NCBI RefSeq assembly: GCF_009455635.1
Contig: NZ_QPER01000002.1
Location: forward strand, 2,542,001 to 2,606,000
Direction: 5' to 3'
Length of the DNA: 64,000 nt
DNA from: Paraburkholderia agricolaris
GTDB taxonomy: Bacteria > Pseudomonadota > Gammaproteobacteria > Burkholderiales > Burkholderiaceae
Below the pieces are notes generated by a model. The model saw only the letters and a program-made list of their open reading frames with translations. It made no database searches and was not told the origin of the DNA. The position numbers and the translations under genes were made by a program. Every line of letters begins with the position of its first letter. The stretch's first letter is position 1. Positions 5,417-22,423 of this stretch are shown in pieces.

Positions 5417-5436
5417 TACTGTATATCCATACAGTA
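5417..5436. promoter_or_regulatory. LexA (SOS) box upstream of DUF4130-UdgX gene
   Basis: TACTGTAT and ATACAGTA form perfect 8-bp arms around a 4-base centre. The core fits the CTG-N10-CAG LexA consensus of beta- and gamma-proteobacteria. It ends 52 bases before the ATG at 5489, a normal operator position. The same arms recur at 21307-21326. Confidence 0.85.
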
Positions 5437-5488: not shown

Positions 5489-6499
5489 ATGAAACGCATT
5501 CCGATCGAACCGTCTTTCGCCACATGGCGGCGTGCCGCGCGGGTACTGCTGCGGCAAGGTAGCGAGCCGCTACAGGTCGAGTGGGTCGAATCCGAAGCTG
5601 AAGCTGGGGCTGCAACTCCGGGCGTGCCGGCTACTGAATCCGCGTTCGCCACGGCGGGTGCCTCCGGCCCAGCAATCGCTGCCGCCGCTGCCCCAGGCCT
5701 CGCCACGCCCGTGATTCCCCGCGAACTGCTCTCCTGGCTGAAAACGGCGGCGTGCTTCCGCGCGCCGGACCGCTGGGCGCTGCTGTACCGCGTCCTTTGG
5801 CGCTGGACGCGCAGCGAGCGCAATGTCCTCGACCCCGGCGACCCGGACGGCGCGCTGCTGGATCAGCGCATCCGCACTATCGAGCGCGAAACCGAAGACC
5901 TGCTGACACTCACCTTGTTCAGACGGCGTGATCCGTCGATGGGGCCACCCGAATTCGTCGGCTGGTACGAGCCGCATCACGACTTGCTGGAGCGGGCCGC
6001 CGTGTGGTTCGCCGAGCGCATGGGCAATTCCACGTGGATGCTGGCCACGCCGCACGGCGCGGTGTTCTGGAACGGCATGCTGCTGCGCACTGACCGGCCG
6101 TTACGGGCGCAATGCGAGCAAGCCGCGCCAGCGTCAGCGGCCAGTGCGGCGGGTGCACTGAGCGGCGAAGCCGTCACCAGCACACCCACCGAGGCGCTCT
6201 GGCTCGCGTACTACAGCAACGCCGTCAATAGCCTGCCGTCGCCGGTGCCGCTGCGTTACTGGAGAATGCCGCCCGCGGGTCCACCGCTGCCCGCACATCT
6301 CGCGCGCGAACGCAGCCGTCTCGGCGCGCAAAGCGCGGCTGTCACCGTTCCCCGCACACCGCCGGTCGAGTATTCGGCCGCGACGCCCCCTTGCAGGAGC
6401 CCACTGGCCCGCTCGCCACCTGCCGGCGCTGCGCGTTATGGCGCAACGCGAAACAGGCGGTGGCGGGCGCCGGGCCCGCACCTGCGGCGATCATGGTGA
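5489..6499 (+). CDS. DUF4130 (TIGR03915-type) DNA repair protein, N-terminal part of a frameshifted DUF4130-UdgX fusion
   Basis: This frame encodes a TIGR03915/DUF4130-like domain. Supporting segments are FRAPDRWALLYRVLWRWTR near residue 92, the arginine-rich LFRRRDP, FVGWYEPHHDLLERAAVWF near 165, and LATPHGAVFWNGMLL. The domain is known next to or fused to UdgX uracil-DNA glycosylases and radical SAM repair proteins. An Ala-rich linker (about residues 37-72) is unusual. From about 6390 the frame becomes an arginine- and proline-rich tail with no family likeness, while the UdgX domain continues in another frame. I read this as one gene of about 510 codons broken by a 1-base loss in the five-C run at 6386-6390. 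An SOS box precedes it. A sequencing error, a true mutation or programmed slippage are all possible. Confidence 0.75.
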   Translation: MKRIPIEPSFATWRRAARVLLRQGSEPLQVEWVESEAEAGAATPGVPATESAFATAGASGPAIAAAAAPGLATPVIPRELLSWLKTAACFRAPDRWALLYRVLWRWTRSERNVLDPGDPDGALLDQRIRTIERETEDLLTLTLFRRRDPSMGPPEFVGWYEPHHDLLERAAVWFAERMGNSTWMLATPHGAVFWNGMLLRTDRPLRAQCEQAAPASAASAAGALSGEAVTSTPTEALWLAYYSNAVNSLPSPVPLRYWRMPPAGPPLPAHLARERSRLGAQSAAVTVPRTPPVEYSAATPPCRSPLARSPPAGAARYGATRNRRWRAPGPHLRRSW

Positions 6500-20448: not shown

Positions 20449-21062
20449 AAGAGATTCGCCCGCGCGGCCGCCCGCGTGCTTATGATTCCGACCAGGCGCT
20501 TGCCGATGCAAGAGACGTGTTCTGGCGCAACGGTTACGCGGGCACCTCGCTGGATCAATTGAGCTCCGCGACCGGCATGAATCGCCCGAGCCTGTATGGC
20601 GCATTCGGCGACAAACGCGCGTTGTATCTGACCACGCTCGAACGTTATATCGAGGCCGGCCGTCTCGCGATGGTTCACGCGCTCGCCGAGGACCTGCCCT
20701 TGCCGCAGGCACTGCTGCGCGTGTATGAGGGCGCACTTGCGTGGTACCTGCCCGCCGACGGCGATCCGCTCGGCTGCTTTATGATCGGCACCGCCACGGT
20801 CGAAGCGGCGGCTGACGCCGAGGTCCGCACGGCGCTTGGCGAAGGGCTGCGCACCTACGACAAGGCCTTCGAAAAACGCTTCAAGCTGGCGCAGGCCGCG
20901 GGCGAACTGGCCGCCGACGCCCAGCCGGCTCTCCTCGCGAAGCTCGCGTCGGCGATTTTGCACAGCCTCGCGTTGCGCTCCCGCGCGGGTGATTCGCGCG
21001 CGTCGTTGCGGGCCACGGCGGTTGCGGGGGTGGCGTTGCTATGCGGCGATGCGGACAGCTAG
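20430..21062 (+). CDS. TetR/AcrR-family regulator
   Basis: This 210-residue repressor-type regulator has an N-terminal helix-turn-helix (ALADARDVFWRNGYAGTSLDQLSSATGMNRPSLYGAFGDKRALY, residues about 22-65) and a ligand-binding C-terminal domain with a YLPADGDPLGCFMIG segment typical of one TetR branch. It is divergent from the GST gene, its probable target. The start at 20430 is chosen over upstream in-frame codons because it gives the usual basic N-terminus (STKKEIRPRGRPRAYD) directly before the DNA-binding domain. Confidence 0.9.
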   Translation: MPISTKKEIRPRGRPRAYDSDQALADARDVFWRNGYAGTSLDQLSSATGMNRPSLYGAFGDKRALYLTTLERYIEAGRLAMVHALAEDLPLPQALLRVYEGALAWYLPADGDPLGCFMIGTATVEAAADAEVRTALGEGLRTYDKAFEKRFKLAQAAGELAADAQPALLAKLASAILHSLALRSRAGDSRASLRATAVAGVALLCGDADS

Positions 21063-21145
21063 CCAGGCCTTTGCAATGGTTGACAGTCACGGCGAACGGT
21101 TACACCTATCATGGCTCGATTCATCCGACGCGCTATGGTCCCGAC

Positions 21146-21229
21146 ATGAACTATCCGTACGACGTACTGACTGCCGCCTGTCTTTTCATCATCGTGGTCT
21201 CCACGTCCATCATGCTCGTGCTCGGCTGA
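21146..21229 (+). CDS. Possible small membrane peptide (27 aa)
   Basis: A short frame of one hydrophobic helix (YDVLTAACLFIIVVSTSIMLVLG). It has no clear ribosome site, and only a weak GC hairpin (21241-21255) follows. Compatible with a single-pass membrane peptide but not proven. Confidence 0.22.
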   Translation: MNYPYDVLTAACLFIIVVSTSIMLVLG

Positions 21230-21306
21230 GCGCCTTAATACCGCCCTTTTGGCGGGGTTGATATCCGCTCGACACGCGCTACGCGTTTCCGTAAAAAGAC
21301 GGGCTA

Positions 21307-21326
21307 TACTGTATGCATATACAGTA
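21307..21326. promoter_or_regulatory. LexA (SOS) box upstream of 122-aa hypothetical gene
   Basis: TACTGTAT/ATACAGTA arms around GCAT fit CTG-N10-CAG. The arms are identical to those of the box at 5417-5436. It ends 15 bases before the ATG at 21342, so it almost certainly overlaps the promoter. Confidence 0.85.
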
Positions 21327-21341
21327 CTTTTCGTCTGAGCA

Positions 21342-21710
21342 ATGCACCTTCCTCCCTTCGATCCTCCCACGCTCGCCGAACTGCGCGCCTGGTGGCGCAC
21401 GTGCGACGAGCAGGCCATTCATCGGCTTATCCTCGAGATCCAGCGCCAACGGCTCACGTTGCTGGAATTGCGCAACCTGATCGACAGCGGCGTCCAGCAG
21501 GCGCGCGCCGCCGACCGCACGCTGGTCGAGCGCGGCGAGCCATTAATGACGCTACGCATACGGATCGCGCAAGAAGTGCTGCGCGTGGGGGATATCGACG
21601 ATACGCGGCAGATGAGCCGCGCCGAACAGGAAAAGCTTGCCGTGCGCACCCAGGGCCAGATGGAATACGCACGTGAAGGCCGCTTGAGGCGGCAGCGCCG
21701 GAATATCTAG
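21342..21710 (+). CDS. SOS-controlled hypothetical protein (122 aa)
   Basis: I do not recognise this 122-residue protein. It is predicted to be soluble and mostly helical and is very rich in Arg, Glu and Gln. It has a WW pair near the N-terminus (LRAWWRTCDEQAIHRL) and a strongly basic end (REGRLRRQRRNI) that could bind nucleic acid. There is no signal peptide or membrane segment. A near-perfect LexA box directly upstream implies induction by DNA damage, and the gene stands alone, with a strong palindrome (21709-21731) overlapping its stop codon. Candidate roles by context are DNA repair or checkpoint control. This is inference. Confidence 0.75.
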   Translation: MHLPPFDPPTLAELRAWWRTCDEQAIHRLILEIQRQRLTLLELRNLIDSGVQQARAADRTLVERGEPLMTLRIRIAQEVLRVGDIDDTRQMSRAEQEKLAVRTQGQMEYAREGRLRRQRRNI

Positions 21711-21731
21711 CTCGGGCACGGTGCCCGAGCT
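21709..21731. terminator. Strong palindrome between convergent genes
   Basis: AGCTCGGGCAC and GTGCCCGAGCT are perfect 11-bp arms around one base. It overlaps the stop codon of the SOS gene and precedes the convergent exporter gene. There is no T run, so termination activity is uncertain. Confidence 0.5.
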
Positions 21732-21796
21732 AACCGGCGTATTTCTGCGCGCGCCCGAACTAAGGCACGGTGCGCGGCCAGGTCGGTCCCGCTGAA

Positions 21797-22423
21797 TCAG
21801 CGCGTTTGTGTCGCGACGCGCAGGCCGAGCGAAATAAACAGCACGCCGATAATCTTGTTTTGCCAGCGGCTAAGCCATGTCATGCGCTTGACGAGTTTGC
21901 CCAACGGACGAATGGTCAGCACGATCAGCGTTGTATAAAGCGCGCTCATGCCCACGAAGATCAATCCGAGCGTCGCGAACTGCAGGAATGATGAGCCGTG
22001 CTCCGGGTGAACGAACTGCGGCAGGAACGCGAGGAAAAACAGCGCGGTCTTGGGATTCAACACTTCGGCAGGAATCGCCTGAAAGAAGGCCTTGGAAGCG
22101 GATACTGGCGCGACCGTCGGCAAATGGGTGCTCGCCTGTTTCTCGCGCAACGCGCGAATGCCCAGGTAGACCAGGTACGCCGCACCGACGAATTTCACGG
22201 CATTGAAGGCAAGTGCCGAGGTCATCAGCAAGGCCGACAGCCCGACCGCCGCGCCTAACGTATGGATGAAATCGCCCACGGCGATACCGAGACCGGTGAG
22301 TATGCCGGCCTTGCGCCCACCATGCACCGTGCGCGTCAAAACCAGCAGCACGGCCGGGCCGGGAATCAGAAAAAGCCCTAATACAACGGCAACGAACGTT
22401 CCTAGCGTTGAAAGATCAAGCAT
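21797..22423 (-). CDS. LysE/RhtB-family amino acid exporter
   Basis: This 208-residue inner-membrane transporter has about six helices. The family signature near the N-terminus is FLIPGPAVLLVLTRTVHGGRKAGILTG, a variant of the PGP motif, and the second half includes NPKTALFFLAFLPQFV. Members export amino acids such as homoserine, threonine or lysine. It is divergent from the YigZ-type gene with about 95 bases between the starts. The substrate cannot be read from the sequence. Confidence 0.92.
   Translation of the reverse strand: MLDLSTLGTFVAVVLGLFLIPGPAVLLVLTRTVHGGRKAGILTGLGIAVGDFIHTLGAAVGLSALLMTSALAFNAVKFVGAAYLVYLGIRALREKQASTHLPTVAPVSASKAFFQAIPAEVLNPKTALFFLAFLPQFVHPEHGSSFLQFATLGLIFVGMSALYTTLIVLTIRPLGKLVKRMTWLSRWQNKIIGVLFISLGLRVATQTR

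Follow-up and report, generated by a model that had tools for sequence, protein, structure and literature searches.

SRAP proteins covalently cap abasic sites in DNA, and to our knowledge it is an open question how bacteria place, regulate and remove SRAP-DNA crosslinks. In the accessible text of one study, YedK is described as binding abasic sites covalently via Cys2, through a bond that is reversible within hours in vitro (PMC9436759), and the portion of a 2013 SRAP survey available to us names SRAP neighbours other than the genes described below (PMC3765255). LexA regulation was predicted in 2012 for two hypothetical beta-proteobacterial proteins, hypA and hypB; of these, hypB is described, in the part of that article open to us, as apparently confined to the genus Burkholderia and LexA-regulated (PMC3323433). 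DdrR, a damage-induced Acinetobacter protein of 78-81 amino acids whose gene is divergent from that of a DNA-damage regulator, is proposed to act in that genus with UmuDAb, as far as the accessible text goes (PMC7273328).

The gene described here lies in a 64,000-nucleotide stretch of DNA from Paraburkholderia agricolaris that was analysed as a whole (the window), and it belongs to a family of proteins predicted to be SOS-controlled. The family has in common with SRAP (YedK/HMCES; PF02586) an SOS setting, and 59 of 126 listed family genes have an SRAP gene close by; it differs in that the family protein is all-helical by prediction and lacks a PF02586 match. DdrR resembles the family in being small, damage-induced and divergently encoded, a likeness drawn from the available description alone, but it is regulated by UmuDAb rather than LexA and is found in Acinetobacter. 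Compared likewise by description alone, from the accessible part of PMC3323433, hypB could be a member of the window gene's family; DUF2471, whose gene stands behind a LexA box in the same genome, is another candidate for hypB. In the literature searched, mostly outside subscription papers, we recognised no report of an SRAP-linked family of small SOS proteins. The family looks undescribed, with the caveat that the hypB of that partly accessible article may be the same gene.

The window gene and its LexA box

Six features of the window, all on the forward strand, enter the analysis:

21342 to 21710, + strand: predicted SOS-controlled helical protein of 122 amino acids, phrog_17852-like (open reading frame, stop codon included)
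21342 to 21593, + strand: conserved domain, residues 1-84 (LPPFxPP...WW...RLILEvq..R...E..R), the part common to homologues
21618 to 21701, + strand: C-terminal basic helix, residues 93-120, from the structure model (block confidence 66-76); varies between subfamilies
21309 to 21324, + strand: LexA (SOS) box CTGTATGCATATACAG, from a sequence scan; kept in relatives
21305 to 21310, + strand: -10-like hexamer TATACT, read from the sequence; overlaps the LexA box
5419 to 5434, + strand: second LexA box CTGTATATCCATACAG, with the same arms; precedes a TIGR03915-like DNA repair open reading frame (5489-6496)

The 122-codon reading frame starts with ATG, its codons occupy positions 21342-21707 and its stop codon 21708-21710. 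A spurious reading frame is ruled out by the median dN/dS of 0.086, which indicates purifying selection (378 pairs from 28 sequences, that of the window and L051-L077). The outer 20-mer of the box (21307-21326) ends 15 bases upstream of the ATG, and the neighbouring genes are TetR upstream and LysE downstream; the spacing and the unrelated neighbours are both as the initial annotation had given them. No Rfam family was found at 21000-21800 (E up to 1).

The palindrome of the box overlaps TATACT, and LexA binding would therefore block the promoter. The overlap of box and promoter that is looked for in a LexA regulon is thus present, in the form of a -10-like hexamer; a consensus promoter scan found no -35 element for the gene. 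When 28 upstream regions are aligned, the sequence ATACTGTA...TACAGT falls in the most strongly conserved block. With up to three mismatches allowed, the window contains two occurrences of the 16-mer CTGT(AT)4ACAG, and two were seen in none of 100 shuffles; the bare arms CTGT-N8-ACAG are weaker evidence, with at least two in 8 of 100 shuffles. The open reading frame behind the second box scores 90 bits against TIGR03915 ('putative DNA repair protein'), below the curated cut-off of 112.

Across the whole genome (8.72 Mb, two contigs) the strict form CTGTAY-N4-RTACAG was found at 12 places, compared with 3 in the reversed control, so that a few of these sites could have arisen by chance. The genes behind such boxes include lexA, uvrA, an imuA and those for a PA0069-type radical SAM protein, a FAN1-type protein, the TIGR03915-like repair protein and DUF2471, as well as an SRAP gene with an internal stop. 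Two of the genes behind strict boxes in this genome, that for DUF2471 (L184:1542-1937) and a 2'-5' RNA ligase/LigT-like gene (L181:1523-2266), may be uncharted SOS genes.

The protein and its family

The 122-residue protein has no match in Pfam, NCBIfam or PADLOC (E up to 10), and the PF02586 SRAP domain is accordingly absent from it at the same Pfam threshold. Its sole match in PHROGs is phrog_17852, a family of unknown function (E 1.4e-19), in which residues 1-84 align with profile positions 1-84 of 213. The statement that it belongs to no recognisable family thus holds for the first three collections and fails for PHROGs. Several known identities were tried. SulA is rejected, with no NCBIfam match at E up to 10 in a library that includes SulA models, and so is a known defence-system protein, with no match in Pfam, NCBIfam or PADLOC. 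PsiB, DinI and YebG, models of which are presumably included in the Pfam and NCBIfam libraries, are likewise not among the protein's matches there, which number zero.

An AlphaFold2 model built from 38 sequences (mean pLDDT 85) is all-helical, with helices at residues 11-20, 24-57, 59-64, 66-82 and 93-120, and the isoelectric point is 10.4, in agreement with the earlier description of a helical protein that is basic at its end. The most conserved positions are L3-P4-x-F6, W18, R28-L29-x-L31-E32, R37, E78 and R81, of which W18 is lost in some distant members, and the C-terminal basic helix is missing from the aligned plasmid forms. The Burkholderia form, as a rule 207-215 amino acids long, contains the domain twice: the family profile matches it twice, and in its model the helix pattern 11-20/24-57/67-82 repeats at 133-143/153-185/191-199. 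The window protein therefore shares residues 1-84 with phrog_17852, whose profile is 213 long, but consists of one domain with a basic tail rather than the full-length two-domain architecture. Neither the one-domain model, searched against PDB and BFVD, nor the two-domain model, searched against PDB, had a structural match at E 0.001, and a PDB profile search with the family gave none; the predicted fold thus offers no biochemical clue. In one subfamily (L050:1294-1746, L100:808-1275 and L169:3811-4254) the domain is preceded by an additional N-terminal part of about 65-75 amino acids (KPxWxYxWxY...). Pfam gave nothing over its cut-off for five N-terminally extended or divergent members, and none for this part in the two copies of the subfamily that were scanned (L100 and L169).

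The gene had been called an orphan, which is true of the locus, where it stands alone, and not of the family, which has many homologues on chromosomes of Paraburkholderia, Burkholderia and Caballeronia, on plasmids of Burkholderiaceae and Pseudomonas, and on phage contigs. A protein search returned 161 relatives, and the 120 of these that were listed are all 122 amino acids long, with Paraburkholderia or Burkholderia wherever an organism is named; a profile search returned 238 relatives, 120 of them listed. With the plasmid form as tblastn query, 99 plasmid records were matched (84 from Pseudomonas, 6 from Paraburkholderia, 5 from Burkholderia and 4 from Caballeronia). The family is present in six IMG/VR contigs. 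Phage Mana (two records) is the only match among phage records, a weak one obtained with the plasmid form as query, and phage records gave no match to the window protein or to a 215-residue protein. A 33-row profile picked up the family in 79 of the 299 Burkholderiaceae genomes searched, spread over 9 of 25 genera, and an earlier 9-row profile found 3 in a phylum-wide draw of 398 genomes (E<=1e-4), all of them Burkholderiaceae. From these genome and plasmid searches, the family is mainly one of Burkholderiaceae that is also present on Pseudomonas plasmids. On one of the latter, P. aeruginosa plasmid pP33-2 (L185), the family gene is accompanied by several anti-CRISPR genes and a carbapenemase gene.

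Among 33 family members scanned, 23 match phrog_17852. The source records mostly call members 'hypothetical protein'; records from Burkholderia also use 'GP32 family' or 'putative gP32', which we take to be a phage gene number and not T4 gp32. A single-strand binding protein of the T4 gp32 type was rejected, the name alone being in common.

LexA boxes upstream of family genes

A strict CTGT-N8-ACAG box lies 5-25 bp upstream of the start codon in 86 of 116 distinct family genes, each counted once and the broken copy L091 dropped; many of the 116 are close relatives. The other 30 comprise 10 with a strict box 217-237 bp upstream, 3 with a one-mismatch box and 17 with none. As a control, a box with at most one mismatch was found within 60 bp of only 10 of 694 other open reading frame starts at loci L140-L179. 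The box is thus conserved with the orthologues, the check that had been proposed for this gene, and also with distant homologues on plasmids and phage contigs. Chance as the origin of the box upstream of the 122-residue gene is ruled out by the shuffles, the genome-wide control, the upstream alignment and this conservation across the family.

The view of the gene as a candidate undescribed SOS effector has stood up in that its product looks like an undescribed SOS-controlled protein whose box is kept in distant homologues. SOS control is, as a prediction from sequence, strongly supported.

Many of the departures from the usual spacing have an evident local setting. In at least two of the ten genes with a distant strict box, those of L050 and phage Mana, the box directly precedes an extended start. 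Among the 17 counted as boxless, L169, of the extended form, has a one-mismatch box 212 bp upstream, and in L157 there is a box some 330 bp from the start. The copies in L009 and L094 each come second, behind a gene that has the box, and that of L049 follows imuA. The copy in L040 has a Tn3-type element directly upstream, and in L098 the contig end cuts 22 bp upstream. L071 retains the right arm alone, beside foreign-looking sequence near a contig end, and in L059 and L062 the end of a group II intron occupies the expected site of the box. The other seven of the 17 are without explanation (L038, L107, L141, L170, L172, L174 and L178), of which L038 and L141 are incomplete.

The intron ends in L059 and L062 (positions 34-110 of each; Paraburkholderia haematera and P. 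domus), which directly precede the orthologue at the place expected for the end of the box, match the group II intron 3' end model RF00029 with 66 bits each. Perhaps the intron inserted at the LexA box, with the palindrome serving as its stem-loop target; a literature search listed no report of group II intron insertion at a LexA box. In the Pseudomonas syringae plasmid pSP14-1_41554 (L040), the Tn3-type element ISPsy42 adjoins the boxless family gene at about 5940-5974, whereas the nearly identical copy of the gene in plasmid pPP1-3 (L042) has a LexA box at that site. In L049 (G009:C11), the family gene lies directly 3' of imuA (NF033429, 212 bits), and a convergent SRAP gene follows 1.2 kb on.

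Linkage to SRAP and possible functions

The first clue to SRAP came from phage Mana and a P. ginsengisoli plasmid, in which the family gene is divergent from an 'SOS response-associated peptidase', and Pfam confirms SRAP near the family gene in five contexts (L046, L048, L050, L092 and L094). PF02586 was searched in each of the 79 genomes that contain a match to the family, and its positions were compared with those of the family genes, of which there are at least 126 (matches down to E 1e-4). A YedK/HMCES-type SRAP gene lies within 3 kb of 59 of the 126 listed family genes, in 47 genomes, where about 0.24 would be expected under random placement, a figure that ignores relatedness and common prophage carriage. 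The two genes are divergent in 43 cases, on the same strand in 11 and convergent in 5. In 16 of the 17 divergent pairs that were read, a single strict, AT-rich LexA box is found between the domain matches, and over these 17 pairs there are 16 boxes in the 4,971 bp between the genes versus 1 in the 63,246 bp outside; the exception is L141, whose family copy is truncated.

The linkage is also recurrent. Mapped on a 76-row tree that has few columns, many unresolved forks and hand-set labels, SRAP linkage shows 16 changes, of which at least 9 fall on strongly supported branches, and so does not look like one inherited accident. Among the rows labelled 'other', the flanks of some are short, and in L093 a piece of SRAP lies at a distance of about 3 kb. 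SRAP is present in 69 of 79 genomes with the family versus 137 of 220 without it (p 2e-5, relatedness and genome size ignored). In a weak test within the genus to which the window belongs, it is present in all nine genomes with the lone chromosomal form, which are hand-picked and related, versus 19 of 30 others (p 0.04).

Not near SRAP are 67 of the 126 listed family genes, including the window gene and all 8 Paraburkholderia 122-residue and all 12 Burkholderia 215-residue copies counted. Conversely, 89 of 148 SRAP matches in family-bearing genomes have no family gene beside them and 59 have one, and 10 of the 79 genomes have no SRAP match. Both genes are prophage cargo, and part of the linkage could therefore be hitch-hiking. 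Carried further, this reading would make them late-acquired prophage morons that merely have a damage-inducible promoter in common, with the family protein serving an unrelated function such as phage or plasmid maintenance. The many copies on phage contigs and plasmids fit such a role, as do the copies in those stretches of Pseudomonas plasmids that were read, which are close to genes for replication or partition and have no annotated SRAP nearby; the one Pseudomonas plasmid read whole has no annotated SRAP at all. We nevertheless regard it as unlikely, given that nearly all the SRAP pairs read have a LexA box between the genes, that the linkage recurs on the tree and that chromosomal copies under selection keep the box. 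A partnership of the family with SRAP is the likely reading.

There is no SRAP gene within 3 kb of the window gene, which is thus not part of an SRAP-linked cassette. That it stands alone, as was first noted, is correct for this copy and not for the family, in which the paralogue and 58 others have SRAP within 3 kb. The window gene is on contig C2 of its genome; the paralogue is on C1, where it follows a NinX-like gene in a cassette with SRAP and the box lies in between. The SRAP reading frame beside the paralogue (L009:2245-3159) contains an internal stop, and another SRAP gene, at C1:1192976, is open over the whole match. The window protein is 98% identical to the L077 copy, which suggests a Paraburkholderia near P. 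fungorum, and its group in the tree consists of Paraburkholderia chromosomal copies and the IMG/VR contig L094 (SH-aLRT 97). The L094 copy, divergently linked to SRAP and 62-63% identical to the window protein, is the nearest relative seen beyond the chromosomal orthologues. We infer that the window gene derives from a mobile SOS cassette and was fixed on the chromosome by itself.

The reading we favour, to which we would give about even weight, is that the family protein is an SOS-induced helical accessory functionally coupled to SRAP and abasic-site processing. LexA would repress the gene, and DNA damage, on which RecA triggers LexA cleavage, would induce it, yielding a small accessory protein that is all-helical. 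The family gene and SRAP stand back-to-back across one common LexA box in phages, in prophages and on some plasmids, so that SRAP and its partner would be made together on LexA cleavage. The domain would bind SRAP, the DNA substrate of SRAP or the fork where SRAP acts, and the protein would assist in positioning, stabilising or removing the crosslinks between SRAP and DNA. The window copy, as a lineage-fixed chromosomal copy, would act in trans with an SRAP encoded elsewhere. More tentatively, and with less confidence than in the coupling itself, we suggest that the family may be an undescribed dedicated partner of SRAP/HMCES-type proteins, which binds SRAP or the abasic-site crosslink in single-stranded DNA and determines the fate of the crosslink, be it retention, reversal or transfer to repair or translesion synthesis, and which spread on phages and plasmids and became fixed on Burkholderiaceae chromosomes. 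A gene recurrently paired with SRAP under the same damage switch, on phages, plasmids and chromosomes alike, would make the question of crosslink handling directly testable, and the family would add a member to the Burkholderiaceae SOS gene set.

The family protein might instead tune the SOS response, as a corepressor of, or brake on, LexA, RecA or another repressor, in the way that PsiB acts on RecA or that DdrR is proposed to act with UmuDAb; it would then give mobile elements control over the SOS response of the host. The family gene usually keeps its own LexA box and is found on phage contigs and plasmids both beside SRAP and in its absence, all of which suits this role, and DdrR, a small, divergently transcribed, damage-induced corepressor, offers a precedent (accessible part of PMC7273328). 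However, no Pfam or NCBIfam model matched the protein, and such a role would not predict the strong preference for an SRAP neighbour; we give it only a small share of the probability. Least probable, in our judgement, is a damage-induced inhibitor of growth or cell division that would stand in functionally for SulA. Small LexA-controlled proteins are often checkpoint factors, which is in its favour, but no SulA model matched at E up to 10, no cell-division gene was seen among the neighbours read, many of which are without annotation, and nothing in the gene context predicts such a role. The initial suggestion of a cell-division or replication modulator accordingly finds no support, the gene context pointing to SRAP instead.

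Returning to the coupling with SRAP, some linked SRAPs, those of L092 and L094 (MCYSAQ or a similar start), have some 130 residues ahead of the Pfam match. We speculate that this N-terminal part might be a docking site. In one locus (L096:7033-7962), a DUF72 protein is encoded divergently from the family gene, in the position that is often that of SRAP.
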